From the IMG/VR virus record IMGVR_UViG_3300042914_000546, positions 1-22,592 of that record: a stretch of 22,592 bases of DNA; one strand, 5' to 3'. Of the stretch, positions 3,204 through 20,519 are shown one piece after another (the first letter of the stretch is position 1; each line of letters begins with the position of its first letter). The position numbers were made by a program, and so were the translations under genes. The notes below the pieces were generated by a model. The model saw nothing but the letters and a program-made list of their open reading frames with translations, was not told where the DNA came from and did not search any database. The stretch comes from a virus.

Positions 3204-3235
3204 AATTCAGGCGGGAGACGCAGCCTGAATTCTTT
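3204..3235 (+). terminator. Hairpin, possible weak terminator for the plus-strand genes
   Basis: A 9-bp inverted repeat (AATTCAGGC at 3204-3212, GCCTGAATT at 3223-3231) has a 10-nt loop and is followed by the weakly T-rich CTTTA on the plus strand. It lies directly after the minus-strand stop codon and 60 nt past the last plus-strand stop. It could end plus-strand transcription or protect the 3' end of a transcript. The short T-tract makes this uncertain. Confidence 0.45.
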
Positions 3236-4256
3236 ACGGGCGGGACATCCTGCGCATCACTGCTTGCCTGCCAGCAGGAGTAGCAAATGATGGCTGAGAT
3301 GCTTCCGCTATTTCTTTGTAAGACAGTTCCTTCTGGTCGGGCTCTAGTCGGCTGCGCATGTACTGCATAGCCCCAGCACCCATGCCAATAGGAGCCGCAA
3401 TAGGTGCAAGCGGCGTCAGAGAGCCGACAGCACCAAGAGCAGAAAGACCAGCAAGAGCCGCTCCAGTCGTATCGCCCTCTTCGTACATCTGCTTGGCACG
3501 AATGCCTTCTCCACCAGCAGCAGCAAGCGCCAGAGGAGGCAGTGCATATCTCGCACCCAACGATGCAGGACCGATCATTGATTGGAATATGGCGCTGACC
3601 CTCTCAAGACCCGATGGAGGAGTACCACGCGCTATAAGGCGATCCACCAACGCTTTAGGCTCATTTGGTCCTGCTGGCCCATACATCTTGCTTAGACGTT
3701 CCGAGACCTTGCCCTGTCCCTTGGATCGCTGATATGCAGCAGACGCTTGGGGTACACCACCTATACCTGGGCGTTCCTGCCCTGCCCAGTTACGAGCCCA
3801 CTTCTCTCCACTAGTTCCGCCTTGAGGGGCTTGAGCAGTTGATGCGCCTTGTGCAATGTTGCGTCCAATTCCCTGCATGGTAGCTCGACCTATATCAAGC
3901 CCTGCCTTACTCGCTCCAAGAGCTAGACCCGCACCGCCACCGATGATCTGCCCCATCCGGACATCTTGCCCTTTCTGAGCCTGACCTAGCCTTTGCTCTA
4001 GATCGCCCAAATCCGGCAGTCCACCAATCGGTGGTTGTGCTGGCATCTCAGGAGGCTCCATCGGGGTAGTCACTGGTGGCTCCCCCGGTTCTCGCCCAGG
4101 TAGAGTCCCTGCTTGCTTGGCTTTGTTCTCTATTTGAGTCAGGCGCTCTGCAATTATCTGCAAGTCCTCTGGGTTGGCATTCTTGGGAGCGGTAAACCTA
4201 ATGATGGTCCCGCTGCCATCAGTGGCTTCCGCCTCGTACTGCACGGTTTCAGCCAT
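3234..4256 (-). CDS. Ala/Gly-rich phage protein, candidate internal virion protein
   Basis: The product is about 340 residues. It has a small N-terminal part with EATDGSGTIIRF and an ANPEDLQIIAERLTQIENKA helix, then a Pro-rich linker (residues about 53-82). Next come two Gly/Ala-rich hydrophobic stretches (GGGAGLALGASKAG near 108 and PPLALAAAGGEG near 240) and LAGLSALGAVGSLTPLAPIA near 270. Such membrane-compatible segments in a last late gene, beside two similar proteins and a giant one, suggest a virion protein ejected with the DNA, but no homologue is named. Two ATG codons lie in tandem (4257-4259 and 4254-4256). I chose the second because the AGGAGG ribosome site at 4263-4268 is 6 nt away from it and only 3 nt from the first. 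It is the last gene before the terminator. Confidence 0.7.
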   Translation of the reverse strand: MAETVQYEAEATDGSGTIIRFTAPKNANPEDLQIIAERLTQIENKAKQAGTLPGREPGEPPVTTPMEPPEMPAQPPIGGLPDLGDLEQRLGQAQKGQDVRMGQIIGGGAGLALGASKAGLDIGRATMQGIGRNIAQGASTAQAPQGGTSGEKWARNWAGQERPGIGGVPQASAAYQRSKGQGKVSERLSKMYGPAGPNEPKALVDRLIARGTPPSGLERVSAIFQSMIGPASLGARYALPPLALAAAGGEGIRAKQMYEEGDTTGAALAGLSALGAVGSLTPLAPIAAPIGMGAGAMQYMRSRLEPDQKELSYKEIAEASQPSFATPAGRQAVMRRMSRP

Positions 4257-5920
4257 CATTGACCTCCTACTGGACGAATAATGAACTTGGGCTTACTAGC
4301 CGTGGCGTCCCCAGGCTGTTGAGCAGGAGGCTTAACCCCGAAGGCATTAGCAAGATTTTGATCGTAGTCCGTTATCAACTTTTTGTACAACGGTGAACGT
4401 TCAAACTGGTTGTAGCTTGCTTTCGGGTTCTGCTCTTGGTATCGGCCCCACGCTTCACCAATGTTGATGTCATGCTGCGCACGCATCGCAATCAGCTTTG
4501 CCTTTTGCATCAATACGCCTGGGCTTTGGCTTATGTTTCCGCCAATGTTACGAACAATCGCTCCCTCACCCTCAGTAACTGCGCCCTGCCCGCGCATGAA
4601 CAAGATTCTGAAAGCAAGCTCAGTTTCTGCCAGCGCACCACCGACCTGACCGACGTTATCCAAGTCTTTCTGACTCATATTTGGCATGAGTTGCCGGACA
4701 CTGTTCTCAAAGCCCCCAAGGTTCACACTTGTTGTGCCAGCCTTGATGCCCTCGTTGATCATGTTCCCGATTGCAGAGGCAATACCTGGGCGAGAGAATA
4801 TGCCGAAGCCCTGCGGGCTCTGACTCACAAGCTGCTGAACTCGATTGGCGTTGAACAGCATTGATCGTGCAGCCGCCGTATTTGCCGTCACCTGCTTTTC
4901 TTTCTCAACAGCAGTCTTGGCACGCCCTAATGCAAGCTCTTTTTCCTCTGCAGCAGAAGTTTCAAGTTCTTGAGAAGTCATTACTCGACCAGGGCCACTT
5001 GGCGCTCCCTGTGAAGGAGCAGCAGGCTGTTCTGCGTAAGACCTGACCAGAGATTGTTCAAGCTGCCTGAGCCTTGCCGGGTTGCCACTCATGGCCTCAC
5101 TCAAAGCATTGGCTAGGTCTCTCGCCACAGGCCCCGGAACATTGATTGTTTGCCCCTCAAGCCCTTGGATAGTCCTCAACTGAACCGCAACAGGCGCAAT
5201 GTCCGGCTTCTTGGTTCGATACAGCAAACCAGTAACCAAGTCCACGATGCCTTCAGGGTTCTCTTGGTAGCGCTTGCGCTCTAGATCCTCCAACTCTTTG
5301 GCGAGGTCAAGAACTCCCTTGCTTGGGTCCATCATCGCTGCCCGCAGGAAGTTCACCCTGTTGGCAATATTGGGGTTGGGCGGCATGAAAGGCTCACCCT
5401 TGATTCCTTCAGTCCCCGGAGGCTGCTGGGCTACTGCTGCTTGTGACCCGGCTGGCAATTGTGCGGCCCCAGGCTGACCCAGAGGCTGTGCTGCACCAGC
5501 CGGTGCGCCCATAGGAGTTGCCGGTTGTGCCCCAGGCGGTACTGTAGGCTGTCCCGGAGGTTGTGCTCCAGGCTGCGGAGGCGCACCTGACGGCGCTGCC
5601 CCAGGCATCATGCCTGTCAGGAAGCGCTGACGGGCCCTCTGTTGCTCAAGCTGCATGCCTTGCTGGGCAAGACCTAACTGAGCCTGGGCAAGTTCTTGCT
5701 CTCGCTTGAACTCTGCTTCTTCAGCGCCTCTGATCTTGCCTGCGGCAATACCTAAAGATTCCCCAAAGGAACCAGTTCGCGTAGGAGCTAAGAAGCCTTC
5801 GGCCATCGCAAGAAGAGTAGGGTCAAACAGCCTATTCTTTCTTGCGTCCAGAGACTGAGTTACCCGATCAAGAGCCTCTTGGTACTTGCGCTGATACTCT
5901 TCAAGTGTGTCAACAGCCAT
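4256..5920 (-). CDS. Gln/Pro/Ala-rich phage structural protein, candidate internal virion protein
   Basis: The 554-residue product starts with a helical domain (MAVDTLEEYQRKYQEALDRV). It then has AEGFLAPTRTGSFGESLG (residues about 40-57), a motif I have seen near the N-terminus of many phage structural proteins of unknown role. A Gln-rich coiled coil follows (about 70-100), then a low-complexity Pro/Gly/Ala/Gln linker (about 105-168), a helical domain (about 185-290), a second short Pro/Ala linker and a C-terminal helical region. That last region contains SPQGFGIFSRPG and a run of small helices to about 500. No enzyme motif is seen. It overlaps the next gene by 3 nt. The place near the end of the late operon suggests a virion or ejection component; this is inference. 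AGAGG just upstream of the ATG supports the start. Confidence 0.72.
   Translation of the reverse strand: MAVDTLEEYQRKYQEALDRVTQSLDARKNRLFDPTLLAMAEGFLAPTRTGSFGESLGIAAGKIRGAEEAEFKREQELAQAQLGLAQQGMQLEQQRARQRFLTGMMPGAAPSGAPPQPGAQPPGQPTVPPGAQPATPMGAPAGAAQPLGQPGAAQLPAGSQAAVAQQPPGTEGIKGEPFMPPNPNIANRVNFLRAAMMDPSKGVLDLAKELEDLERKRYQENPEGIVDLVTGLLYRTKKPDIAPVAVQLRTIQGLEGQTINVPGPVARDLANALSEAMSGNPARLRQLEQSLVRSYAEQPAAPSQGAPSGPGRVMTSQELETSAAEEKELALGRAKTAVEKEKQVTANTAAARSMLFNANRVQQLVSQSPQGFGIFSRPGIASAIGNMINEGIKAGTTSVNLGGFENSVRQLMPNMSQKDLDNVGQVGGALAETELAFRILFMRGQGAVTEGEGAIVRNIGGNISQSPGVLMQKAKLIAMRAQHDINIGEAWGRYQEQNPKASYNQFERSPLYKKLITDYDQNLANAFGVKPPAQQPGDATASKPKFIIRPVGGQ
4263..4268 (-). promoter_or_regulatory. 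Consensus ribosome binding site deciding between two ATGs
   Basis: The minus strand reads AGGAGG here, a full Shine-Dalgarno match. It lies inside the last codons of the upstream gene and is 3 nt from the first and 6 nt from the second of two tandem ATG codons. Spacing favours the second. Confidence 0.6.
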
Positions 5921-5932
5921 GTTTGCCTCTTA

Positions 5933-6937
5933 TCAGTCGCCGGGTTCGTCGTAATCGTAGACAGGGTTGGATGTGTCCGGAGGCGTATAAATATCACTTC
6001 CTCGACTTGGGTCGCTATACGCTCTCGTAATCAACTCTGCGGTTTCTTGTGGCGTAGCGGTTCCACTTGTAATCTTTGACCACAGTGACTGCAGTCGATC
6101 ACCAGCAGTACCAGCAGCAGCAGAACCAAGCACCCCCAACAAGCCAGTTGCAGTGGCAAGCGGTGATTGTTGATATGCACCAGCCTCCGGCCCAACGAAC
6201 TTCTTCACATCAGAAATCGGCACTTGGTAGCCACGCAGCAACCCAGACACGTTGGTCGCCTGATTCAGCGGGAAGTCAAGTTTGCTCTGCTCGTACTTCT
6301 GCTTCTCAGCACCAGCCTTCGTCAGAGCTTGAGCACCCGTCAATCCGAGTTCTTGCTCTTTGCCTGCAATCTCAGCTTGCGCCCTTGATGCAGCAGTCTG
6401 GCCTGTCATCTCGTCGATTGCAGCCTTCAGAGCGCCCTCATATCCTTTAGACAGAGCACCGTACTGCTGGCCTGTCAGATTAGATTGAACGTCCGCTAGA
6501 GATTGCCCAAGGGCGCCTGCATAGCGCTGGCTACCAAGGCCACCAGAACCAACGAATCCCGCCTTCAGAGAAGGAAGCAGATTCCTCTGTACGTTCTGCT
6601 GGCTCAGTCTCTCCATCTCCTTCACCACATCAGTGGTGTACGGATTCATCAAGGCCTTGATGCGATCAGGAGTAATGCCCTTTGCGGCATCAGCAGCGGT
6701 TAAGCCAGCAGCACTCAGACCAGTCTTATAGGCGTCAGCAGCAGTAGAAACCTGACCATACCCTTGAGTCTGCAGAGGGTCGTATGCTGCAATCCCTTGT
6801 GCCGCAGTTGTCTTCAGCGCCCCCTGCCCAACCTTGCCCAGGTCAGTCAGGTAGTTCGTGTAGTAGTCCGGCGCCGTCTGAGTAGTCGTCGTCGTCTTGG
6901 TGATATCCGGCAGCGGAGATCCTTGGGTGATACTCAT
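5933..6937 (-). CDS. Phage structural protein with MNPYTTDVV motif
   Basis: The 334-residue product has a Thr-rich start (about residues 14-20). Then comes a conserved block beginning MNPYTTDVVKEMERLSQQN and continuing through GFVGSGGLGSQR, followed by helical QQYGALSKGYEGAL. The pattern NPY...V..E....Q......L......GGFGSSR recurs in many podovirus and metagenomic phage proteins encoded among late genes; I know no proven function. Residues about 160-225 are Ala/Gln-rich and helical. A Gly/Ala hydrophobic segment near 260-275 (GLLGVLGSAAAGTAG) could contact membrane. The tail is acidic and Pro/Tyr-rich. AGGGGT at 6943-6948, close to the upstream stop, is a plausible ribosome site. TGATAA tandem stops end the gene. 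Confidence 0.72.
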   Translation of the reverse strand: MSITQGSPLPDITKTTTTTQTAPDYYTNYLTDLGKVGQGALKTTAAQGIAAYDPLQTQGYGQVSTAADAYKTGLSAAGLTAADAAKGITPDRIKALMNPYTTDVVKEMERLSQQNVQRNLLPSLKAGFVGSGGLGSQRYAGALGQSLADVQSNLTGQQYGALSKGYEGALKAAIDEMTGQTAASRAQAEIAGKEQELGLTGAQALTKAGAEKQKYEQSKLDFPLNQATNVSGLLRGYQVPISDVKKFVGPEAGAYQQSPLATATGLLGVLGSAAAGTAGDRLQSLWSKITSGTATPQETAELITRAYSDPSRGSDIYTPPDTSNPVYDYDEPGD

Positions 6938-6939
6938 GT

Positions 6940-9900
6940 TTAACCCCTAGCTGACTTTTGCTTGCTGGTCTTCTTGAGGTACTCAAGAGGGGACTTGGCA
7001 GGCGGTGGGAGATCCTTCGGACCAGACGACCTCGCGTGAGCACGGATTGAGTGCATCATGTCGTAGAGTTTATCTGATCCAGCCTTCGTTGAGCCATTTC
7101 CTAGCGCAGCAACTACGTCCGCGGGAAAGACGAATTCACCGTCCGCAAGCATCGCAGGAATGTCGTCTGACTGTCCATCTCCCGGACCCGTCACCGCATC
7201 ACCGTGACGGAAGTCAACTCTGGCCTTACCGGAGTGGTGAACTACGTTCAATCCACCCTTCGCATACTGCCCGTACCGGGTTCCACCGCCAGCAGCAAAC
7301 ATCGGCGTTGCAAGTCCACCAGCCTTGAATCCAAAAGGACTCTGCTGCTCTTGTGGCTTGTTTTCTCCATACGGATCAAGTAGATCATCAATACTTGTCT
7401 CTTGCCCGTATGCGTAGCGATCAGGCTGAGTTTGTTGTTGCGGTGCCATAGTTGTTTGCTGCTGTGTGGTTGGAGTGAAGTCACCCTTCTCAACTTGAGA
7501 GAAGAACGCTGCCAGAGGGCCAAGGTACTTGGATTGTCCAGATGTTTGCAACGGAGACAGTTTCGTCTCTGTTTCTGTTTTGGCTGGGCCTGCTGCAGGC
7601 TTGAGCATCTCCAAGCCAGTCTGGCGCCTTTGCTTGGCTTCTTGTTCAGCTTTGGCTTTGGCCGCATCAGCAAGGCGCTTCTGCTCCATCTGCTGAAACT
7701 GCCCCGTCAGATCAGTTTTCAGGTCAGCAATATCCCCAAACAAACCAGTCGGCGCCCACCGGCTTCCGGGAGCAAACTCAGGAGGCTCACCACTACCCGT
7801 AGTCGCTCTATTGAGGAAGTCGTAATCAGACTGGTCGATCTTCCCGTCACGGTTAACGTCATACGTTAAGTCAGGAGTGGTTGTTACTTCTCCCTTGATA
7901 ACACTGTTGACGTAATCTAGATCGGCTTGAGTGACTGCCTGCGCAGGCTTGCCAAGCAACGTAGATGCCTCGTCAATCTGCTTCTGGAGCGCAGTTTGAC
8001 CGCTTGTGATTTGTCCAGAAAGTTGAGTCTTGGCCTCAGTGATCTGGCCTTGAAGATTCTGAGCAGTAGTGCCCAGTTGGGTAGCAACATCTCCAATTGC
8101 GCGAGACAGCGCCTGATCCCGAGACAGGCCCTGAGCTTCGTATTCGGCAGCCTTAGTATTGATCCTAGTCTCAGCATCAGACAGAGCCGTACCAAGCCCC
8201 TCCAGGCCGGTCGTAATCTGTTGCCCTAATGCGGTCTGAGAAGCCTCAATCTCTGCCCGAAGATCGGAAGCAGTGCTCCCAAGCTGGGACAGAATGTCAG
8301 ACTTGGTTGTCCCAAGATCAGTTGCAACCTGATCCAGTCCGGCCTGGATTGCCTGATCGCGTGTGAGACCCCTAGATTCCGCTGCAGCAATTGCCTCATT
8401 CAAACGCTGTTCAGTAGAAGTGATCTGCTGCCCCAGCGCTGCTTGAGAAGCCTCAATCTCACCACGCAGAGTAGATTCAGTCGTGCCAATCTGCGTGAGC
8501 AAATCAGACTTGGTAGTTCCAAGATCTGTAGCTACCGTGTCCAAAGCGGACTCGATAGCTTGGTCTCTGGTAAGGCCTCTGGCTTCTGCAGCAGCAATTG
8601 CGTCTTGCAGGCGGGTCTCTACGTTCCCAATCTCAGCAGTTACAGCACCTAATTGGGTTGAGAAGTCAGTCCTAAGTTGTTCTTCTGTCTTGCCAATTTG
8701 ACCCAGCAAGTCCTGCTTGGTAGTGCCAAGCTCCGAAGATACAGAGTCAATTGCTGCTTGAAGTGCAGCATCTCCCTGCAACCCCGCAGCTTTGGCTGCA
8801 TCAATTGCTGCGGTGAGTCTGGACTCCACATTGCCAAGCTCTGCAGTAACTCCACCCAGTTGCGTAGAGAACTCAGTACGCAACGCAGCTTCAGTAGTGC
8901 CAAGCTGAGACAGCAGGTTATCTCGCGTGGTCCCCAGGTTAGAGGCAACAGAGTTAATCGCCGTCTGCAATGCAGCATCACCTTGAAGACCAGCAGTTCT
9001 AGCATCCTGAATTGCTTGTGAAAGTCTTGATTCAAGGCTGGCATTTACATCCGTAGTTGCAGGGGATGCAGGAGTAGGGGCCGGTGGCGCAGGCGTTGGA
9101 GCAGGCGGTGCAGGCGTCGGTGCTGGGGGCGCCGGTGTAGGAGCAGGAGGTGCAGGCGTCGCCGCAGGAGGTGCGGGTGTAGGTGCGGGAGGCGCAGGAG
9201 TTGGAACAGGAGGTGCAGGAGTTGGAACAGGAGGTGCAGGAGTTGGTGCAAGCGGTGCAGGTGTTGGTGCAAGCGGGGCAGGTGTTGGTGCAGGAGGCGC
9301 AGGTGTTGGAGCAGGCGGAGCAGGAGTTGGCGCAAGCGGGGCAGGTGTTGGAGCGGGAGGTGCAGCAGTGGGAGGGGTAACAGCAGGAGGCGTAACAGCG
9401 GGGGGAGTAACAGCGGGGGGAGTGGTTCCCGCCGTCGGGCCTCCAGTAGTAGTCGGAGTATTGGCAGTCAGCCCAAGGTCAACGTAGTTTTTAATGATTG
9501 TTCTAGCTTGCTCTGGAGTCGCAGAAATAACCTCCAAAGAAGCATCTGAAACACTGCCCGCAGGAACCCCCTGATCAGAAAGAGACTTGAGGTTTGTGGC
9601 GTAGGCGTCAAAACTAAAGTCAGACTGCTCAAGCGCGGCAGTGGTTACCTTGTTGAAATTATCAAGTGAAACAGTAACGCCTTTGATATCAAAGATGGGG
9701 GCCTGAGCGTTGAATGATCCGGGCTGTACTTGAACCGACCCATCTATAAATTGCTGCAAAGTCACAGGCCTACCAATCGAATCAACCGCAACCTGCATGT
9801 TGTAGTTGATGGCCGATGCAGACATGATGCCGCTGGCAACACCCATGCCGATAGCACCACCGATAGCGCCTGCAGTCTGAGCCTGATTCCAGTCAACTTG

Positions 9901-12900
9901 ACCAAATGAGTTGTATTGAACAGAGGCGTTTTGCAAGAACTCTTCGCCCCATTCCGTCACATACTGCTTGCCCGCCAGCTTCGTAAAGGTGCCTGCCGTG
10001 ATCTTTGTGGCCTCACCCATGAATGCTTTCACTAGGGCGCTATCGGCAATCAGGTTAGATCCAAATCCAACAACAGCAGCCTGCGCACCAGACTTATATG
10101 CTTGAGACTTAGCATATTCGTCTGAACCGCCAGCCCTCTTAATGTTGTCGTATGTCTCTCCAAAGTTTGCAGAGAAAGATTCACCTGCATTAAGTACGGC
10201 GTCTGTACCAGTAGCGGCCCAGAATCCGATAGCCTTGCCAGCAATCCCACTTACGATGCGGCCAACACCACCAGAAGCGATGAGCATTGGCACTTCTTGG
10301 ACGGCCTCTTTGCCGACCATAGTAAGTGCGCCAAGCGGGTTGTCTTTAGCCGCACGGAAAAATGCCTTGGACTTTTCAATAACACCATTTGCCGACTGGA
10401 CAGCATTTACGATGTTGTCTTCTTGTTGCTTAGTGGTCGCAGACTGAATACTCGCGCCATACTTGGACAACCAATCAGCGGTACGCGAGACGACATTGTC
10501 CCGCTGCACAATCCCAGAAGCCCACGCAAGATCGTTGGCGAGCTTTACAAGCTCACCCCCGCCCTGAGCAACAACAGAAGCAAATTCAGTCAGCGCAGCC
10601 GCATTACCGCCGCCGTACTTGTTAATGGTATCAACCACCGCCTTAGCGCCATTGATGACAGAAGCACTGACAATGGACTTGTTGGGGTCCAGCTTAGAAA
10701 CGTAGCTGAGATATTGCTGCGGCGCAGCAGAAGAAGGGTCTTCTGGCGAGATGATTTGAATGTTTGAATCATCAACTTCCAAGCTGCTCGGCAGGGCTTG
10801 AGAGGTAACCCAAGCAAAGGAGCCGTTGGACAAGATGATTGGCGCCGCGCCATTAGACTCAAACGCTTCTGCAGACGTTGCAAGCCTGACCCCAGGCGGA
10901 AGATAAGGCAGCGCCATAGTGTTTGCGTCTGGCGTATCCGATGTGTATCCGACTCCTCTAATCTCTACCCGGAAACCATCACCCTGGCTTGAGTTGTTGT
11001 AAGCCGTCTTGATGTCATCAAGGGTTCCAGTGTTGCCGTTGATGAAGTCTTGAATTGATGCGCCCTTCAGTGCGAGAACATCATTGCCATACAAGGCGTG
11101 TGCAGACTTGACAAGTTGCTGCAACTTCTCAGGAGGAGCCTGCTCCCAAGTCAACCCTTCGGCCTTTAGAGCGCCAGTAATTAGGCGCATCGTCTCTTTC
11201 AACAACCCACCATCAAACGATGCGGCGATGTTGCTGTCGTTGACAAGGTAGGTCTTGCCGTCATAGGTGTAGTTGTTGTACCCGGCCTGCTTAGCCGCAA
11301 GCTCTGCAGCGCCTTGATCAGCAAACACATCACCACGGAACGTAACTGCCTCAATATCCGACAACCGCTGCGCAAACGTCTCTGCCTGGGCTCGACTGCC
11401 GGATCGCATAGTTGCAATCTCATCAGGCGTCAGGGGGCGATCTAGGTTGGCCTTCTCAGCAAACGCTTCAGCTTCTCCAGTAGAGACGCCACGCATGTTG
11501 TAGACAAGATTGTCATAGCTCTTGCTGGTGACTTTTTGAATGAATGAAGGAGTAATGTTGTACTCGTTCATCACATTCAGAAGGTCTTCATCTGTTGCTT
11601 CTGGATTACGCAAAACCTTCTGCAACTCAGTCAATCGCAACTCATCCGCAGCAGTATTGGCTCGTATCTGGTTGTCTAGACCGACCCTTGCTGTTGCCTC
11701 ATCCATCCCCGTAAAAGTGGACAGAAGATCAGCATCAGCATCAGTTGCGTCCTTACCAGTAAGCTGCTTGTAGAACGCCCTGATCTCTTCAGGAGTAGTC
11801 GTCTGCTCGTTGATGTACTGAGCAGCAGCAGCTTTCGGGTCTTTCTGCTGAGCAAGACGGTCTACAAGCTCCTTTTGACGGTCATCCAGACTGTAATAGC
11901 TGGCCTCGGTAATGATCCCGGCCTTCTTCAGTTCGTCCAGCGCAGGACCGGCTTTGAGTACCTTCTGCAGTTCTTGCTGAGCCTGACCAACCGCCCAATT
12001 GACCGCAGATTGCGATAGATCGCCGCCATCAATAGCGGTGCGCAGCATCGTTGTGACAAACGACTGCGTCCTTTGATCCGCTTTGCTGAAATCAGGGATT
12101 TGACTCAAGCCATAAGACAACAACCCTTCTTTGGCTGCACTGGCAAGCATGCCCCCAACATCAACATCTTTGCCTTGCAATGCAGAACTGATTGATTGCC
12201 TGATAGTGCTTTGCACTGCGCTAGGCAAATTCTTGAAATCCGGAATTTGCCCAATAGCCAAATCAACAGCACCAGAAGCAAGCGTTCCGACAATCGCGGA
12301 CTCTACGTCTCCCCCAAGCAGAACAGCTTTTGTGGCGTTGGTAGCTACATCTGTGACGAGCTTCAGACCTGCTGCGTTGTCAAAGACGGTCTTTGCAGCT
12401 TCTCCGACAAAGTTGCCAACTTCAGCGCCAGCATAAGATGCCAAGGAACTCTTGACGGCAGCACCAACATCGCCACCGTTCATGACGGTATTGACAATAG
12501 TGTTGCCAATAAGCGCATTCGTGGCAGCACTAACGGAGACGCCTAGTCCACTTGTAACCGCGCTACCAATTGCCGCCCCAGCGCCAGTAAATGTAAGTGC
12601 AAGACCGATAGCGACGGACCTGATTGCGCTGGCATCACTGCTTGAACCCCAAACAGGAATCAACCGTCCATCAGGCGTAGCAATCAGACTTACGTTGCCT
12701 TTCCCTTCAGCAGTCCATGCCGCTTGAGATCCTGGGGCAAACTTGGCCTGACTTATGTCAGTTATGCCGTTTTCAACGAGCTTGCGTGCAAAGTCATTAG
12801 CAACCACTGGCAGCAGACGGCCGCCCATCTCTGCTTGTGGCGTTCCAGCACTGCCAATACCTACGTTTTCCCCAAGCCCTTGCCAGCTTTGAAGTAGTTG

Positions 12901-13776
12901 GTTGGTAATAGTTCCTATTTGCTCGTTTTTTAGCGCAGCCTGAGCATTAGTTGCAGCCTTTGAATACTGTAACTTTACCCAATCGTCATATTGATATGGT
13001 ACTTCTTCTGGTCTACTTATATTCAAACGATCAGCATAAGGGTCAACCGGAGCTTCTCGCGCCAACTCATAGGCAACAAGTTCGTTTTGCCAAATGTCCT
13101 CACCTAACGTCGGCGCCACATAATACTTCTGTGCCGCTCCAAGCGTAGACGGATCAAACTTATACGCCGTAGATGGCGCCGCAGCAGGAGCAGCGGTAGG
13201 TGCTGGAGTAGGCGACGGAGTAGGGGCCGCTGTAGGGGCCGGTGTGGGCGCGGGAGTAGGTGCTGGAGTTGGGGCAGGTGTCGGGGCTGGTGTGGGCCCC
13301 GGTGTGGGAGCGGGTGTCGGTGCAGGTGTCGGTGCAGGCGGCTGCCACGGCATGGGCTCAACAACCGCTTCGGGCTGTGAAGCCGGGCCGACAAAATCGG
13401 GGTTGCTTGGGTTAGTCGCCCAATCCGGCAGGCTCACCGCTGGGGCGGGGGCCGCAGTGGGCGCCGGAGTCGGTGCGGGGGTGGGTGCCGGAGTTGGGGC
13501 TTGAGTCGGAGTTGAAGCCGGTGTTGGCGCGGGGGCTATATATCGATTTGCCTCAATCCAATCAATAGTCTCCAACGATTCACCAGCTACAGCCAACTCT
13601 AGTGGTGTAACTTGGTTTTCGTTAAACCAGTCAAGTTTCTTTCGTGTACCTTCCGCGCCTGTCCAAGAATACCAATCAGAGGGGAGCATCGCTTCAATAT
13701 CTCGAATGCCCGATAAAAATGAGTCTGCATCCGCATAAGCGTTCTCAAGCTCGGGTTCGGTAGCAAGTCGTCGCAT
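6940..13776 (-). CDS. Giant 2278-aa multidomain virion protein, likely ejected or tape-measure-like
   Basis: This one gene fills 30 percent of the window. Domains in order are an N-terminal helical part containing WFNENQVTPLELAVAGES (about residues 50-67), two TPAP-type linkers (about 81-112 and 146-199), and an Ala/Gly-rich membrane-compatible region (about 380-560). A helical region with TTTPEEIRAFYKQLTG and a GYNNYTYDGKTYLV element (near 830) follows. Next are hydrophobic stretches near 1148-1200 and 1299-1324 that flank TEWGEEFLQNASVQ, and a PPAPTPA linker (about 1450-1572). The end holds five 69-residue coiled-coil repeats (1582-1937), an EF-hand-like DVNRDGKIDQSD (1973-1984), a Gln-rich stretch and a C-terminal block with GPGDGQSDDIPAMLADGEF (about 2199-2217). 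I associate that block with many large phage structural proteins. Size, membrane-like segments and polyvalent-protein resemblance suggest an ejected internal protein comparable in role to T7 gp16; a tape-measure role is the alternative. No lytic transglycosylase motif was recognised. The start follows the upstream stop by 1 nt and lacks a good ribosome site, so reinitiation is likely. Confidence 0.75.
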   Translation of the reverse strand: MRRLATEPELENAYADADSFLSGIRDIEAMLPSDWYSWTGAEGTRKKLDWFNENQVTPLELAVAGESLETIDWIEANRYIAPAPTPASTPTQAPTPAPTPAPTPAPTAAPAPAVSLPDWATNPSNPDFVGPASQPEAVVEPMPWQPPAPTPAPTPAPTPGPTPAPTPAPTPAPTPAPTPAPTAAPTPSPTPAPTAAPAAAPSTAYKFDPSTLGAAQKYYVAPTLGEDIWQNELVAYELAREAPVDPYADRLNISRPEEVPYQYDDWVKLQYSKAATNAQAALKNEQIGTITNQLLQSWQGLGENVGIGSAGTPQAEMGGRLLPVVANDFARKLVENGITDISQAKFAPGSQAAWTAEGKGNVSLIATPDGRLIPVWGSSSDASAIRSVAIGLALTFTGAGAAIGSAVTSGLGVSVSAATNALIGNTIVNTVMNGGDVGAAVKSSLASYAGAEVGNFVGEAAKTVFDNAAGLKLVTDVATNATKAVLLGGDVESAIVGTLASGAVDLAIGQIPDFKNLPSAVQSTIRQSISSALQGKDVDVGGMLASAAKEGLLSYGLSQIPDFSKADQRTQSFVTTMLRTAIDGGDLSQSAVNWAVGQAQQELQKVLKAGPALDELKKAGIITEASYYSLDDRQKELVDRLAQQKDPKAAAAQYINEQTTTPEEIRAFYKQLTGKDATDADADLLSTFTGMDEATARVGLDNQIRANTAADELRLTELQKVLRNPEATDEDLLNVMNEYNITPSFIQKVTSKSYDNLVYNMRGVSTGEAEAFAEKANLDRPLTPDEIATMRSGSRAQAETFAQRLSDIEAVTFRGDVFADQGAAELAAKQAGYNNYTYDGKTYLVNDSNIAASFDGGLLKETMRLITGALKAEGLTWEQAPPEKLQQLVKSAHALYGNDVLALKGASIQDFINGNTGTLDDIKTAYNNSSQGDGFRVEIRGVGYTSDTPDANTMALPYLPPGVRLATSAEAFESNGAAPIILSNGSFAWVTSQALPSSLEVDDSNIQIISPEDPSSAAPQQYLSYVSKLDPNKSIVSASVINGAKAVVDTINKYGGGNAAALTEFASVVAQGGGELVKLANDLAWASGIVQRDNVVSRTADWLSKYGASIQSATTKQQEDNIVNAVQSANGVIEKSKAFFRAAKDNPLGALTMVGKEAVQEVPMLIASGGVGRIVSGIAGKAIGFWAATGTDAVLNAGESFSANFGETYDNIKRAGGSDEYAKSQAYKSGAQAAVVGFGSNLIADSALVKAFMGEATKITAGTFTKLAGKQYVTEWGEEFLQNASVQYNSFGQVDWNQAQTAGAIGGAIGMGVASGIMSASAINYNMQVAVDSIGRPVTLQQFIDGSVQVQPGSFNAQAPIFDIKGVTVSLDNFNKVTTAALEQSDFSFDAYATNLKSLSDQGVPAGSVSDASLEVISATPEQARTIIKNYVDLGLTANTPTTTGGPTAGTTPPAVTPPAVTPPAVTPPTAAPPAPTPAPLAPTPAPPAPTPAPPAPTPAPLAPTPAPLAPTPAPPVPTPAPPVPTPAPPAPTPAPPAATPAPPAPTPAPPAPTPAPPAPTPAPPAPTPASPATTDVNASLESRLSQAIQDARTAGLQGDAALQTAINSVASNLGTTRDNLLSQLGTTEAALRTEFSTQLGGVTAELGNVESRLTAAIDAAKAAGLQGDAALQAAIDSVSSELGTTKQDLLGQIGKTEEQLRTDFSTQLGAVTAEIGNVETRLQDAIAAAEARGLTRDQAIESALDTVATDLGTTKSDLLTQIGTTESTLRGEIEASQAALGQQITSTEQRLNEAIAAAESRGLTRDQAIQAGLDQVATDLGTTKSDILSQLGSTASDLRAEIEASQTALGQQITTGLEGLGTALSDAETRINTKAAEYEAQGLSRDQALSRAIGDVATQLGTTAQNLQGQITEAKTQLSGQITSGQTALQKQIDEASTLLGKPAQAVTQADLDYVNSVIKGEVTTTPDLTYDVNRDGKIDQSDYDFLNRATTGSGEPPEFAPGSRWAPTGLFGDIADLKTDLTGQFQQMEQKRLADAAKAKAEQEAKQRRQTGLEMLKPAAGPAKTETETKLSPLQTSGQSKYLGPLAAFFSQVEKGDFTPTTQQQTTMAPQQQTQPDRYAYGQETSIDDLLDPYGENKPQEQQSPFGFKAGGLATPMFAAGGGTRYGQYAKGGLNVVHHSGKARVDFRHGDAVTGPGDGQSDDIPAMLADGEFVFPADVVAALGNGSTKAGSDKLYDMMHSIRAHARSSGPKDLPPPAKSPLEYLKKTSKQKSARG
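7858..7860 (-). other. Start of EF-hand/dockerin-like calcium loop in the giant protein
   Basis: The codon for D1973 opens the loop D-V-N-R-D-G-K-I-D-Q-S-D (down to 7825), which fits the EF-hand or dockerin consensus DxNxDGxIxxxD with all ligand positions present. A single loop follows directly after the coiled-coil repeats. Calcium binding is predicted from the motif only. Confidence 0.6.
7966..9033 (-). repeat. Five tandem 69-residue (207-nt) coiled-coil repeats in the giant gene
   Basis: Repeats start at protein residues 1582, 1651, 1720, 1789 and, after an 11-residue insert, 1869. Each contains GL(Q/T/S)..(A/Q)(A/I) near position 15, LGTT at 33-36, and in most a second GTT/GKT/GST at 45-47. 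Repeats 1 and 2 are closest to each other, as are 3 and 4, suggesting successive duplications. Spacing of hydrophobic residues is often 11. Confidence 0.85.
9060..9430 (-). repeat. Pro-rich low-complexity tract, 21-nt and 15-nt tandem units
   Basis: This encodes a linker of about 124 residues in the giant protein (residues about 1450-1572). Most of it is the 7-residue unit PAPPAPT (21 nt), with variants carrying L or V. The N-terminal end of the linker is the 5-residue unit PPAVT (15 nt) in about four copies. Unit numbers may vary between related phages by slippage or recombination. Confidence 0.85.
13180..13340 (-). repeat. TPAP tetrapeptide (12-nt) repeat tract
   Basis: A linker of about 54 residues (146-199 of the giant protein) is made of APTP units with occasional G, A or S substitutions. 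It is separated from the first TPAP tract by a non-repetitive segment of about 33 residues that contains EPMPWQPP. Confidence 0.85.
13441..13537 (-). repeat. First TPAP repeat tract near N-terminus of the giant protein
   Basis: About 32 residues (81-112) of PTPA-type repeats follow the N-terminal helical domain. The unit is the same 12 nt as in the second tract, but third-codon bases differ, so the copies are not recent perfect duplicates. Confidence 0.8.
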
Positions 13777-13777
13777 A

Positions 13778-14119
13778 TTAATTTACCGCGGGATTGATTG
13801 CGCCTAGCAGAGCCTGAGCCCAGTCTTGCCAGTCGTCGTAAGTGTCTGTTGCGGGGACTGCCTCGTTGGTGAAGACGTCAATTGCCTTCAAGCCATTTCC
13901 CCAGAGCTTCCAGTCCGTGTTCTGAGTTGGGATCTCCAAATGGTTGACAGCATATTGTTCTGCCATCAGACTTGCCCACGACTCAAAGGTGTGATACCTC
14001 GGATCATAGACAAGTGGAGCACTTCCCGCCACCCCTGTTGATGAGGGAGCAAGGCCAAACGTAGCCACCAGCATCGGAGAAAACCCAATCCCGAATAGAG
14101 CTACTGACCTTGGCGTCAT
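13778..14119 (-). CDS. 113-aa phage protein with repeated W-rich DW..WA motif
   Basis: The N-terminus is hydrophobic (VALFGIGFSPMLVATFGLAP, residues 6-25); it may be a beta element rather than a signal peptide. After it come three related segments, each with a Trp pair or single Trp after an acidic residue: FESWASLM (W48), NTDWKLWG (W70, W73) and YDDWQDWA (W97, W100). P64 and P89 precede the second and third. Proteins ending in F.DW..WA..L are frequent among late genes of phages, with unknown role. It begins in an ATGA overlap with the 22-residue repeat protein and stops 1 nt before the giant protein. A virion role is inferred only from position. Confidence 0.7.
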   Translation of the reverse strand: MTPRSVALFGIGFSPMLVATFGLAPSSTGVAGSAPLVYDPRYHTFESWASLMAEQYAVNHLEIPTQNTDWKLWGNGLKAIDVFTNEAVPATDTYDDWQDWAQALLGAINPAVN

Positions 14120-15627
14120 GTCAGCCTCGTCACTACAGTCGTGAATCCATTGGTCTCAATAGACTGAGACAGCGTGCCTACAAACCTGCCATTGCGGGTT
14201 ACCTGCAACGTATCCGTCAGGGCATACAGAGCCGCAAGCTCTTCAATCATCACACCAGGATTGTCAGTTGTGTACGTCAGCCCAGCAGTCGTCTGTACCG
14301 TGACGTTGCCATTTCTGGCTTCAGAGATAGATTGCACAATGTCATCCACCGCCCTGAAGTTAGTGCCTACAGTCAAAGACGTCGAGTCAAGCCCATTGAG
14401 CTTGTAAATCTGCTGCAGCAGCCTAGCCTGGGCTCTGGTAATCGTGTACGTCCCAAGTTCTACCGCAGCACTGAAGAACTGGTTTGTGTTGACGTACAGA
14501 GGCGGCTGTAGATCAATCGGCCCAGGCGTGACCGTAGGCGAATAGAAGGTGTTGGTGTTGACCACCAACGGCGGAACAAGCCGCGTGTCAACAGTCGCAG
14601 CGTAGAACGTATTGGGGTTCGTGTAGAGCCCCGGATTCAGGAAGTTCTGAGCCGTGACAGACGCTAAGTAGAACGTCTGTGTGTTGTCATACCTCGCAGG
14701 GTTGAGGCTGTACGTCCCTACAACTGTCGGCGTGTAGAACGTGTTTACGTTCGTGAACAGCGCAGGAAGAAGCTCATTCGCCGTCGAGATGCTGGGCGAA
14801 TAGAACGTCTGTGTGTTCGTGTACAGCCCAGGCAGCAGCGTATTCTGTGTACTGACTGTTGCGCTATAGAACGTCTGCGAGTTGACTACAAGGCTCGGCA
14901 GCAAGGCATTTGCTGCATCAACCGTGGCGCTGTAGAAGGTCTGAGTATTCGTGACCAGCGACGGACTAAGGGTGTATGCGCCCCCAACTGTTGCTGAGTA
15001 GAAGGTGTTGGTGTTGGTGTAAAGAGCAGGCGCTAACGTGTTCTCTGAAAGAACAACGGGCGCGTAGAACGCATTACTGTTGTCATACCTTGCAGGCAGC
15101 AACTCATTGCTGGCTACTACTACCGCGGCGTAGAAAGTATTGGTGTTCGTGTACAGCGCCGGGAACAGATTCTGCGTCGGGCCAGTCTGTGTAATGGTCG
15201 CCGAGTAAAACGTCTGTGCGTTGTCGTATCTGCTTGGGCTTAAGTTGTAAACCGCAGAAACATTTGCTGCATAGAACTGATTGGTGTTGTCGTACCTTGC
15301 CGCAGACAAGGTGTTGGTTGCGTCAACAACAGGCGTATAGAACGCATTTGTGTTGTCGTACCGCGCAGGCAACAGCGTATTGCTGGGTGCAACTGTGGCC
15401 GAATAGAAGGTCTGTGTATTGGTGTAAAGAGACGGCGCTAAAGTGCTGACCGCAGAGACAACAGGCGTGTAGAAGGTATTGCTGTTGTCGTAGCGTACCG
15501 GAACCAGCGTATTGCTTGCGGCAACCGTCGCTGCGTCAAAAGTATTGACGTTGTCGTACCGCGCAATCTGTGTGAGGGTTTGCGCGGGAGGCCCCGCCCC
15601 GGCAGATTGGAGCAGGGTGAGCAGCAT
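14116..15627 (-). CDS. 22-residue repeat virion protein (17 copies of L/R-Y-T/D-N...TFY...V)
   Basis: The 503-residue product has a short start (residues 1-19). Seventeen tandem repeats of 22 residues follow (20-395), with consensus P-x-[LR]-[YVF]-[TDV]-N-x-[NQ]-[TAQ]-F-[YFD] and then a strand ending in V and an N-L pair; copies 6, 15 and 16 have 25, 20 and 23 residues. A unique C-terminal domain (396-503) begins ITRAQARLLQQIYKLNGLD. Alternating hydrophobic and aromatic residues suggest a repetitive beta structure, perhaps a fibre shaft. I have seen NTNTFYSATV repeats in phage and prophage proteins, but no function is known to me. The start lies 3 nt after the stop of the 54-aa gene, so reinitiation is likely. 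It sits within the tail gene block, so a tail-exposed or adhesin role is the best guess. Confidence 0.75.
   Translation of the reverse strand: MLLTLLQSAGAGPPAQTLTQIARYDNVNTFDAATVAASNTLVPVRYDNSNTFYTPVVSAVSTLAPSLYTNTQTFYSATVAPSNTLLPARYDNTNAFYTPVVDATNTLSAARYDNTNQFYAANVSAVYNLSPSRYDNAQTFYSATITQTGPTQNLFPALYTNTNTFYAAVVVASNELLPARYDNSNAFYAPVVLSENTLAPALYTNTNTFYSATVGGAYTLSPSLVTNTQTFYSATVDAANALLPSLVVNSQTFYSATVSTQNTLLPGLYTNTQTFYSPSISTANELLPALFTNVNTFYTPTVVGTYSLNPARYDNTQTFYLASVTAQNFLNPGLYTNPNTFYAATVDTRLVPPLVVNTNTFYSPTVTPGPIDLQPPLYVNTNQFFSAAVELGTYTITRAQARLLQQIYKLNGLDSTSLTVGTNFRAVDDIVQSISEARNGNVTVQTTAGLTYTTDNPGVMIEELAALYALTDTLQVTRNGRFVGTLSQSIETNGFTTVVTRLT
14443..15570 (-). repeat. Seventeen 66-nt tandem coding repeats
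   Basis: Unit boundaries fall at protein residues 20, 42, 64, 86, 108, 130, 155, 177, 199, 221, 243, 265, 287, 309, 331, 351 and 374. Fourteen units are exactly 66 nt; length changes occur only in copies 6 (75 nt), 15 (60 nt) and 16 (69 nt), always in whole codons. Copies diverge in synonymous codons, so the array is old and maintained at protein level. Confidence 0.88.
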
Positions 15628-15630
15628 GCT

Positions 15631-15795
15631 TTACGCCAGCGTTTTAAGCTGGTCCAGCGTCAACTGAGTTTGAGCAATCTGCGAATCCAGCGACACAACT
15701 TGGTTCATGTCGCCAACGGACATCGCTGAAGCGCGGGCCGAATTCAGCGCTGCCAGTTTGTAACTGACCAGTTGAATTAGTTCTGCAATGCTCAT
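15631..15795 (-). CDS. 54-aa helical phage protein, short gene
   Basis: The product begins MSIAELIQLVSYKLAALNSA and ends with QTQLTLDQLKTLA. It is almost certainly a helical hairpin: two amphipathic helices around a central S-V-G-D-M turn (residues 26-30). Its ATG forms an ATGA overlap with the stop of the 541-aa gene, and its TAA is 3 nt before the next gene, so it fills a gap that would otherwise be empty. Similar tiny proteins, with an ELIQLV...L..LR..A...GD pattern, occur beside tail genes in other phages as I remember them; the role is unknown. A chaperone or structural clamp would fit but is a guess. Confidence 0.72.
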   Translation of the reverse strand: MSIAELIQLVSYKLAALNSARASAMSVGDMNQVVSLDSQIAQTQLTLDQLKTLA

Positions 15796-17417
15796 ACCAG
15801 CACCACGCATTCTTGTGCGATTGTGGAAAGATGCGACTGCAAGAACACAGTGTCGTAAGTGTCCGTGCCGTCAATGGCGCAATAACACGCCACCCGATTC
15901 CCCACCACTGCAGTGCCTGTCTGCAAGAAGTCTGTCGGAGTGAACGCAGACAGCACGCGATTTTCTACGTCAAACCGATACATCTGGCTGATCTGCGAGG
16001 CTGTATACAGGTTTGCGTAGAACATCCGGCCTTCGTTGTCAAACGGGCTGTAACACCCACCCGACCCCGTGGTTGGAAGCGCTCCGGGGGAGCCGTCATA
16101 AACAATCGCGCCCGTCCAAGTGCCCGTGATTGCTCCTGCAATGTCCAGCACATCCAGCGTTGCCGCGCCGCCTCGGAAGAAGTAGCAGAACGACTGCCGA
16201 CCGTACCTGTTTTGATCCGGCTCAATTCCAAAGGACGGTGCCCACATCCCGCCAGCCGCATTCGCAGCAGGAGCCGCACCGAAGTACGCTGTGCTCCAAG
16301 CGTTGGCAACAATGTTGTTGGTGCCGTTGTTGATGGTCGCGTCGGTGTAGTTGTAGGTGTACACCGTGGTGGTTGCAGACGAGCGCAGCAGAATCAGATT
16401 AGGAAGTTCGATAACGTACTTAGCCGTTGCCGAGGGCGTCACCGTCCAGTTGGTGCCGAGCGTATAAACAGGGCTTGGACCCGCCGTGTGGCTGGCGATG
16501 ATCCGCCGCTGCCCCACCGCCGTTACGTTGGTTGTGTCTTCAACAATCCGGATTTGGAAGTTGCGGTACTCATTTGCCAGCACAACCGCATCGCCCAACG
16601 TGGCCTGACCCGTCAGCGTGCCTGCTGCCGTGGCTGTGGCTGTGAGGGCGTAACGAGCAACAACTCCAGTGTCGTAGTTGAATGCCCCCTTGATCATTCC
16701 GTCGCCGGGGGAGTTGTTATAAGGGACGTACTGTTCATCCAGCACCATCAGGCTTGAGTCCGTGCCGATGGTTGCGGGGAGGTTGGTTTGCGTCATTGAC
16801 GCAAGCGTATTCGTTGCAACTTCAAACGAACGCCATGAAGTTGCAGCAAGCGTACCTGCTGACAGCATTGCCACTCGGCCCGCAACAATTTCGTAGCGCG
16901 AGCCAGTGGTGGGCGTAAAGCCGAAAGCTGACAAGACCGTGATCGTTGGCGTAGTGCCCCCGGTATTGCCAGTGATATACCGTTCAACAGTTTTGCCTGA
17001 CCCGCCTGCCGCGTTGTCAATAATGCGCAGCTTGTAGCCATACTCACCCGAGCCGCCTCGGTTAGCAAGCATGTTCACACCCACAGCAGTAGGCAGTGCG
17101 GTGGTCAGCACTACAGAAGTCGTTGTGGATCCCGCAGCAATCGTGCCAACAAGACCAAACGAAGGAACAAACGCCGTGGCTGCACCAGCACCGAACGTGC
17201 CGCCAAGACCGGGGTTCACTGCAAACGCAGACCCCTTCGTGATGATGTTGTAGCGGTTGAGAATTGCCGCTGATACCAACTGGTACACAAACGGGTTACG
17301 AGAGATGTCATTGCGCAGATCACTACACACCGCCACCGCAGCAGCATGGGCGCTTGGCATAGGCGGAACTTGCCGCCACACCAGCGTGTCAATGACCTTC
17401 TTAAATGTGTTTGCCAT
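15792..17417 (-). CDS. 541-aa phage tail-associated structural protein
   Basis: The product begins MANTFKKVIDTLVWRQVPPM and has a conserved-looking N-terminal block with RNPFVYQLVSAAILNRYN (residues about 40-57). The remainder is rich in Gly, Thr, Ser and aromatic residues with alternating hydrophobic positions, as in beta-sandwich or beta-propeller tail proteins. A late segment (GIEPDQNRYGRQSFCYFFRG, then YDGSPGALPTTGSGGCYSPF) resembles blades of a propeller. There is no signal peptide or long transmembrane segment. I recall similar MANTF...VW.Q proteins in other phages, annotated only as hypothetical or structural. The start follows the preceding TAA with no gap. A tail or receptor-contact function is inferred from composition and its neighbours. 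Confidence 0.7.
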   Translation of the reverse strand: MANTFKKVIDTLVWRQVPPMPSAHAAAVAVCSDLRNDISRNPFVYQLVSAAILNRYNIITKGSAFAVNPGLGGTFGAGAATAFVPSFGLVGTIAAGSTTTSVVLTTALPTAVGVNMLANRGGSGEYGYKLRIIDNAAGGSGKTVERYITGNTGGTTPTITVLSAFGFTPTTGSRYEIVAGRVAMLSAGTLAATSWRSFEVATNTLASMTQTNLPATIGTDSSLMVLDEQYVPYNNSPGDGMIKGAFNYDTGVVARYALTATATAAGTLTGQATLGDAVVLANEYRNFQIRIVEDTTNVTAVGQRRIIASHTAGPSPVYTLGTNWTVTPSATAKYVIELPNLILLRSSATTTVYTYNYTDATINNGTNNIVANAWSTAYFGAAPAANAAGGMWAPSFGIEPDQNRYGRQSFCYFFRGGAATLDVLDIAGAITGTWTGAIVYDGSPGALPTTGSGGCYSPFDNEGRMFYANLYTASQISQMYRFDVENRVLSAFTPTDFLQTGTAVVGNRVACYCAIDGTDTYDTVFLQSHLSTIAQECVVLV

Positions 17418-18311: not shown

Positions 18312-20519
18312 TCAATAACCTCGGACATCACCAATGTCAGCACTCAGGATGACTCGGCCTAGCTGATAGTCACCATCAGCCACATTTGACACGAACTTCA
18401 ACCGCAACTCACGGCGCTGTTCCTTCATGTCAATTTTGTTCGTATTCGGGGCAAACGTATAGGGGTCAGACTCAACATCTTCTGATTGAGCGTAAGGCCT
18501 ACCAGTCACGATCAGAGACATATCACCCTCTTGGATGAAGTCTGGCTCAACACGCTCAAGTCTCAGCCACCGATTTGCACCTTCCATTGTCGGCTGAGAA
18601 GGCCCACCAGAAACCCATCCAAGATCATTCGTCTCAAAGTAGCTCTCAATGGCCGTCACGTTCGTGCCGTCAATAGCATTGACACCAAATTCATGCTGGT
18701 AGACATTGATGAGGTCTGGTTCCGTCTTGAACGTGGCCGTGCTTGATCCTGTCCCTGTTGCAACCAAGGACATCTCAATGCCTTGCGCATAAATAGCAGA
18801 GACAGGAACAGAAAAACCTGCTCCAGAACCACCGAGATTTGTGTTGCTTGCACTCAGTGAGTCGCCAATCTCATACCCTGCGCCTGGGTTAGTTACCGAC
18901 ACAGCAGTGACAGATCCACCGCTAACCGTAATGGTCGCCAGCGCTCCAGCACCAGAACCACCTGTAAGCGGAACATTGGTGTAAGTCGCGTTTGGATAGC
19001 CAGAACCCCCAACAATCGCACCAAGAGTCTTGATGTTGCTTGAGGTAATGGCTTGGACGGTAGCGCCGCTGTCTATGTTGATGCCCGAAATAATCAGACC
19101 GAGAGTGACGTCTACGTTGTAAGTATCTAGAAGCAGAAGATCACTTCCATTGGTCGCGTTTACTGTTGCAGTTGTGACCTCAACTTCTTCTGAAACATCC
19201 CATCCAGCAGCAACAGGGAAAGCAAACACCTGAGAGAAGTACCCCGCAGACCTTCTGGCACCTAGTGCCTGTCCAGCGTCATACCAAGTGTTCTCGCGGA
19301 TGTTGTAGATGATGACATCGTTGCATTCAGTGGCGTCACCCCGCGGGTAGAACCACCAAATCTCTCCAAATCTAGGGACTTTCGTCACCCACACCTTTTG
19401 GCGTTGAGAGTAGTTCAGGTTGTCAAAGAAGTAGTTCTGATTCAGATCGTTGGGGATTTCCTTCACAACACCGTTGTACAGAAGGAATCGATCCACACCA
19501 CACCAGTAGTACACGCCGTCGTACTCAATCGCAGACTGGCTGGACAGAATAGAAGACTGGCTTGAGACGATGTCGTATCGCCAATACTGAGCCGGAGTCC
19601 CCTGCCCCCCGATGTAGCTCACCTTGATAAGACTGTCTTGGCTCCAAAACAAACCACTCGGAGAGTTAGAACCACCTCGAACCGGAAGCCCCTGAACGAA
19701 CTTCCCTGTAGCCACGTTAACTTCATTGGCATCAGCGGATACCCAATCCTGCGCATTCCCCGCAGAGCAGTTCCTAATCAAACCATTGTTCCCGTAGACA
19801 AACACATACGGGTGCAGAGTCACAACTCCACCAGAGACCTCAACATTGTTGTTGAACGTCAAGGTCACAGGCCCCGATGCGGTGGCATTGTTGGATAGCG
19901 TGACAGTCGTGGTAGAGACAGAAACAACAGTTGTGTTGTCTGGGATACCAGTTCCAGTAACAGTCTGCCCCGCACCGATCAACAGATTGGTTGCCGCCAG
20001 AGTCACTGTAGGCAATCCGGTGGACGTAGTTGCTGTGTCAGTAAACACACCAATCTGAGACATCGTAGTCCCATTGATGTCGCCAATCAGAACTGGCGTA
20101 TTTACCGTCGCATCTGTTGCCGCTAGGTTCCTCCCAGGATGCGCCACCAACGAAGCATTCCCAGATCCGTCTACATCGTAAAAGCCGTCAAACTGCCAGA
20201 GATTCAGCGGACTTGCAGTGAAGTTACTCAGCGTGAAATCTGAAACACCTGCGCCAACGCCGTTGTCGTCAATTACAAGCTGTTGCAAACCATCACTGTA
20301 GCCGCTAAAAATGTAATTGAAACTGTCCTGAGCATTGACCCAAATGCCTCTGGACGGCCCATTCAGTTGACTAGAGATAACTCTATATCCTGCTATCTTT
20401 CGAGGTCTTCCGCGCTGGAAACGAACCCAACGCCCATCGTTATAGAACTGCTTGTCAAAGACAGTTCCATCCCTCTGGATGCCAGATTTCGTGTCAAGGG
20501 CAAAGACTTTTGCAGTCAT
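18312..20519 (-). CDS. Tail nozzle / packaged DNA stabilisation protein (P22 gp10, T7 gp12-like)
   Basis: The 735-residue product resembles the phage stabilisation proteins that close the tail tube of podoviruses and hold DNA in the head. The matching core includes [17 protein letters not shown] (30-46), [20 protein letters not shown] (58-77), [20 protein letters not shown] (236-255), [18 protein letters not shown] (333-350), [20 protein letters not shown] (373-392) and [12 protein letters not shown] (403-414). This is a beta-propeller pattern. Two regions interrupt it: about 160-225 with [16 protein letters not shown], and about 446-578 with [18 protein letters not shown] and [14 protein letters not shown]. 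The second matches a module found in many phage tail proteins. The start shares one nucleotide with the previous stop (TGATG). A role as connector at the distal tail is likely; the match is from memory of the family. Confidence 0.8.

Follow-up and report, generated by a model that had tools for sequence, protein, structure and literature searches.

What does a 2278-aa phage protein do when no family in Pfam, NCBIfam or PHROG covers either the protein or its C-terminal region? The protein in question, referred to here as BIG, is encoded in a complete IMG/VR record of 22,592 bases (the window), which is probably a piece of a phage genome. Its reading frame, pointed out in a preliminary description of this DNA, runs uninterrupted from an ATG start. 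When the 672 C-terminal codons are compared with those of a close relative (L089), changes at codon positions 1, 2 and 3 number 107, 53 and 235, a pattern which indicates that BIG is translated and under selection. The body of BIG has no BLAST match in 50,697 phage records; the family itself has at least 584 confirmed matches. BIG very probably belongs to a set of four proteins that enter the bacterium together with the DNA of a freshwater virus with a short tail. The features discussed below are collected in Table 1.

Table 1. Features of the window and of BIG (res., residues of BIG)
Feature	Position	Strand	Basis
SU10-type head-tail adaptor, 211 aa	21760..22395	-	PF24175 E 3e-28, phrog_2941 E 8e-33; SU10 gp11 family
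735-aa nozzle-type tail protein	18312..20519	-	phrog_3287 E 2.4e-24, family of SU10 gp17
BIG, 2278-aa ejection-type protein, first of four-gene block	6940..13776	-	ORF and orthologues
N-terminal module of about 57 aa, res. 23-79	13540..13710	-	seen in 5 proteins, at start or internal
Pro-rich region res. 65-218, includes tracts 93-113 and 146-202	13123..13584	-	composition; DNA tandem repeats
Domain A, Gly/Ala-rich hydrophobic, res. 411-589	12010..12546	-	HMM, 50/101 orthologues
Middle region res. 621-1053	10618..11916	-	HMM, 13/101 orthologues, in many cases split
Domain B, res. 1070-1355, includes NP..E..QE element and E..E...Q motif	9712..10569	-	HMM, 30/101 orthologues
TEWGEEFLQNAS motif, res. 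1274-1285, within domain B	9922..9957	-	sequence
Pro-rich region res. 1430-1594	8995..9489	-	composition; DNA tandem repeats
69-residue amphipathic helical repeats, res. 1595-1945	7942..8994	-	lag-69 identity 53%, period 3.63
EF-hand/dockerin-like loop DVNRDGKIDQSD, res. 1973-1984	7825..7860	-	Dockerin_1 E 2.8e-4
Universal C-terminal region, res. 2053-2278, core starting near 2121, includes GPGDGQSDDIPAMLADGEFV	6943..7620	-	101/101 orthologues
p334, relative of SU10 gp21/gp22 ejection proteins	5933..6937	-	phrog_4287 E 2.8e-4; hhalign vs SU10 gp22 E 1.2e-5
p554, third gene	4256..5920	-	conserved position and length
p341, fourth gene, SLT lytic transglycosylase of relatives absent	3234..4259	-	comparison with relatives

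The three proteins encoded downstream of BIG are Ala/Gly/Gln-rich, as first described, and comprise 334, 554 and 341 aa. The gene for the first, p334, is the next one 3' of BIG in 80 of 86 contigs, as a rule after a gap of 2 nt, and this places BIG in an ejection block beside ejection-protein homologues. The family that holds SU10 gp21 and gp22, phrog_4287, matches p334 of the window and 40 of 78 orthologues (best E 2.6e-12). A single hmmsearch of p334 against SU10 gp22 is marginal (E 0.023), and it is the PHROG result that carries the claim. Both gp21 and gp22 are present in SU10 virions and are lost on genome release (PMC9509320). The AlphaFold model of p334 is all helical (pLDDT 71, pTM 0.37), which suggests, with modest confidence, a long-helix protein; a Foldseek search with this model gave no significant match. 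For p554, scans of Pfam, NCBIfam and PHROG found no family, and hhalign of the p554 family against SU10 gp23 and T7 gp15 found no relation. The fourth gene encodes an SLT lytic transglycosylase in seven of ten tested relatives and another two phages. In the window, p341 lacks the SLT domain but can be aligned to what comes after this domain in relatives; L155 likewise lacks SLT. The SAR11 phage HTVC023P, assigned to Podoviridae (PMC9599517), encodes homologues of both BIG (gp79, 316 aa) and p334 (gp81).

The virion genes also point to SU10. The SU10 proteins gp11 and gp17 and the HTVC023P proteins gp56 and gp72 match phrog_2941 and phrog_3287, respectively, as the window adaptor and nozzle do, and the adaptor is present in all 22 relatives tested. 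The portal gene falls outside the window; in the relative G001, the portal shares phrog_1216 with SU10 gp6, so that portal (in G001), adaptor and nozzle all belong to SU10 PHROG families. The likeness to the gp20-gp24 block of SU10 (Kuravirus) thus consists of these three families and a gp21/gp22-type ejection protein, and it extends to gene order: in both cases the block follows the nozzle gene, precedes early genes on the opposite strand and is associated with a transglycosylase. In SU10 the transglycosylase is a separate gene (gp20), whereas in most relatives of the window it forms one end of the fourth gene, and the window itself has none. SU10 also differs in having neither a BIG-type protein nor the C-terminal motif, and its gp23 and gp24 are not detectably related to the proteins here. 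The preliminary description had proposed an undescribed DNA ejection apparatus. Synteny and partner-gene homology, on which the ejection reading of BIG rests, speak for the ejection part of that proposal, but "undescribed" is too strong, since SU10 has portal, adaptor, nozzle and p334 of this type.

Between the nozzle gene and BIG (14116-17417, minus strand) are genes encoding proteins of 503 and 541 aa with few homologues in the fetched loci. The 503-aa protein has regular N-T-x-T-F-Y repeats and is perhaps a tail fibre.

The most striking property of BIG is that its body is exchanged wholesale among relatives while its surroundings stay constant. Among 100 distinct complete orthologues, BIG ranges from 416 to 3264 aa (316 aa in HTVC023P), and the partner proteins range from 307 to 412 aa (second gene, with one of 564 aa), 435 to 749 aa (third) and 344 to 722 aa (fourth). 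The last 160 or so residues are common to all 100. In pairs with C-termini that are 80-90% identical, the median share of the N-terminal body held in common is 0%. The C-terminal identities came from alignments that were sometimes short; a control based on p334 agrees, with BIG bodies having a median of 0% in common at 55-75% p334 identity, where nozzle and adaptor have about 100%. These comparisons used BLAST with SEG at E 1e-6, a setting at which very diverged bodies can be missed. The gene neighbours of BIG align end to end while the bodies do not. At distances of 0.05-0.15 in the nozzle tree, BIG changes in length by up to 3.65-fold and p334 by at most 1.11-fold. The window BIG is itself a mosaic: residues 1-79 and 405-856 match the orthologue in L092, and residues 660-1436 and 1580-2278 match that in L089, with p334 of the window being 84-87% identical to its counterparts in both.

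The constant end is found by profile in all 101 BIG proteins. It carries the GPGDGQSDDIP tail pointed out in the preliminary description, in exactly one copy in each of 100 orthologues, as part of an element, GPGxGxSDxIPAxLxxGEFV, that is seen in the tape measure proteins of phages with long tails, too. The C-terminal profile matches gp16 of Douge, a siphophage tape measure protein, in two copies (E 1.8e-8), and a tblastn search with the C-terminal region found 91 phage records; among the records listed, most are annotated as tape measure. The BIG orthologues of GB2A and DSL-LC04 are themselves annotated in this way, and one relative (MW202545.1) was deposited as Siphoviridae. It could therefore be asked whether BIG is a tape measure protein that sets tail length in a long-tailed phage and is expelled from the tube. 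The resemblance is confined to the GPGxGxSD element, a match of 35-60 residues and no more. The adaptor, portal and nozzle belong to the short-tail type known from SU10, none of ten structural genes scanned in G001 belongs to a tail-tube family, HTVC023P is assigned to Podoviridae, and a 3.65-fold change in length between close relatives with constant neighbours does not suit a ruler. This reading is so improbable that it deserves hardly any weight. A tape-measure match, which the preliminary description had set against an ejection role, thus holds for the C-terminal element but not for the remaining virion, which is short-tailed.

The element is nevertheless a sequence tie between ejection proteins and tape measure proteins. 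In the siphophage proteins (Douge gp16, and those of Arthrobacter and Gordonia phages) it reads GPGxGxSDxxxAxxxxGEF. In Douge gp16 it is internal and doubled, whereas in BIG it is C-terminal and there is no long tail. The authors of the Douge study proposed that tape measure proteins, once released, build a periplasmic, envelope-spanning channel (PMC13033339), which makes it plausible that BIG and tape measure proteins share a docking or delivery element. The AlphaFold model of the C-terminal region is of low confidence and mostly unstructured (pLDDT 62), so no fold search was made with it.

In four relatives (L134, L138, L139 and L082), the C-terminal element is duplicated in near-tandem at the end of BIG. 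L082 is MW202545.1, which, despite its deposition as "Siphoviridae sp.", has an SU10-type adaptor and a nozzle-type homologue; on these grounds, the label is probably wrong.

The body is built from modules that vary in occurrence. Domain B is confined to orthologues of at least 1458 aa, and where both domains are present the order is A, B, C-terminus. Two Gly/Ala membrane-like regions were correctly noted early on, at residues 391-459 (peak KD 1.61 at 388-406) and, more weakly, 1305-1323 (KD 1.52), though neither qualifies as a strong transmembrane helix, and BIG has none elsewhere. Both lie inside or beside the recurrent domains A and B. The three Pro-rich stretches are also real (residues 93-113, 146-202 and 1468-1570), as is the EF-hand-like loop at residue 1973, for which the Dockerin_1 match is just below cut-off. 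Loops of this kind occur in 9 of 101 orthologues and in 9 of 2135 other ORFs, the latter including redundant BIG copies. The long coiled coil of the preliminary description is something else: residues 1595-1945 hold an amphipathic repeat of 69 residues in about five copies. Identity at lag 69 is 53%, and the hydrophobic period is 3.63, with nothing at 3.5, so that the heptads of a coiled coil are absent. A bundle, either straight or right-handed, or an amphipathic helix at a membrane surface may fit better. Similar repeats occur in about five of the BIG orthologues that BLAST detects, and the putative hinged rod of the preliminary description is thus optional.

Pro-rich tracts, repeats, EF-hand loops and, in one relative, a beta-helix are what might be expected of a fibre, whisker or adhesin on the outside of the virion, where its C-terminus would anchor a long rod, and receptor-binding proteins too exchange their bodies. 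The position of BIG within the ejection block beside p334 argues against such a role, as do the hydrophobic stretches, rich in Gly and Ala, that 77 of 101 orthologues have, the C-terminal element in common with tape measure proteins and the existence in G001 of separate tail-fibre-like genes. A surface fibre is therefore unlikely.

It may also be asked whether BIG is an ejected effector of the polyvalent type, with a variable cargo acting on the host in take-over or counter-defence. A large, modular, variable body with a constant end would suit this, and giant ejected enzyme-bearing proteins do exist, such as DEV gp71/N4 vRNAP (DEV gp71, 3398 aa; PMC10925440). Like BIG, DEV gp71 of the Schitoviridae is encoded beside two smaller ejection proteins in a short-tailed phage; unlike BIG and its relatives, in which no RNA polymerase domain was detected, it carries an RNA polymerase. 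Polyvalent proteins join catalytic effector domains on one chain; Pfam and NCBIfam revealed no convincing catalytic domain in BIG or 27 relatives, and the content is instead membrane-like and of helical repeats. An effector role is accordingly very unlikely. The E-rich motif TEWGEEFLQNAS that had been called polyvalent-protein-like is present in domain B, but that comparison is not supported, no convincing catalytic domain having been found. The E..E...Q pattern recurs only in part, the strongest columns of domain B being the NP..E..QE element at 1146-1161. The beta-helix, in L090, is the only match judged genuine among the 27 orthologues; scattered matches to SMC, HMG box, antitoxin and other Pfam or NCBIfam entries were discounted as artefacts of repeats or composition.

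Comparison with known ejection proteins gave no homologue of BIG. Profiles of the C-terminal region, domains A and B and p334 revealed no relation of BIG to T7, P22 or SU10 proteins; domain B shows no relation to T7 gp16 or P22 gp16, nor do domains A and B to SU10 gp24, and a PDB profile search with domain B and p334 found nothing meaningful. The original view that this is not the T7 arrangement is borne out, in that neither T7 gp15/gp16 nor P22 gp20/gp16 is detectably related. Since known ejection families are not all mutually homologous, this does not exclude an ejection function. T7 (gp14-gp15-gp16) and P22 (gp7-gp20-gp16) are likewise short-tailed and encode their internal proteins in a block of several genes, and T7 has a peptidoglycan-hydrolase domain in one ejection protein, gp16 (PMC8954989), as most BIG relatives do in the fourth gene. 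In contrast to the 416-3264 aa of BIG, reported sizes for gp15 and gp16 are 431-982 and 609-1337 aa (PMC8954989), and a constant C-terminus with a replaced body is not reported there. As far as the literature searched extends, a handle with an exchanged body and such a size range has not been reported for ejection proteins.

The best explanation is that BIG is probably an internal ejection protein of an SU10-type phage, in which the C-terminus would be a constant handle and the body an exchangeable part that crosses the envelope. Points against it are that BIG has no strong transmembrane helix, that it shows no relation to any SU10, T7 or P22 ejection protein, and that its fibrous features would suit an external fibre as well. 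From sequence comparison we infer that BIG would be present in the virion and ejected, and the same comparisons suggest its topology, the roles of handle and body, and adaptation to hosts. In this model, BIG, p334, p554 and p341 would be packaged and, at infection, pass out of the head via portal, adaptor and nozzle to help the DNA across the envelope. The handle may dock BIG to p334 and/or the portal-nozzle channel, and/or mark it for packaging. The body, with domains A and B, the 69-residue repeats and Pro-rich linkers, would enter the envelope and line or brace the DNA path, the transglycosylase, where present, would open the wall, and exchange of bodies between phages could tune DNA entry to the host envelope. 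Receptor-binding proteins are the usual explanation of host range; the swaps in BIG suggest that the DNA-entry step is also under diversifying exchange.

More tentatively, and with considerable doubt, BIG may represent a class of podoviral ejection proteins that combine a fixed C-terminal handle, in common with tape measure proteins, with a freely exchanged envelope-crossing body. If so, ejection and tape measure proteins would carry one common module, and body exchange would adapt DNA entry, and not just receptor binding, to new hosts. The family is abundant and has cultured members (HTVC023P and the Caulobacter phages RW, whose BIG has 580 aa, GB2A, RLK and KcrB), and these proposals are thus testable.

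The C-terminal region is also encoded on plasmids of Candidatus Megaera polyxenophila, a Rickettsiales endosymbiont (CP113869.1, L240 5813-12360; also AP017967.1). There it belongs to a protein of 500 aa (profile E 4.9e-27), after which three large unknown proteins are encoded, and YqaJ- and RecT-like genes are nearby; these plasmids are perhaps phage-plasmids. Relatives in L235-L239 occur in metagenome bins of Limnohabitans, Burkholderiales and Methylomonas, which are weak hints of hosts.
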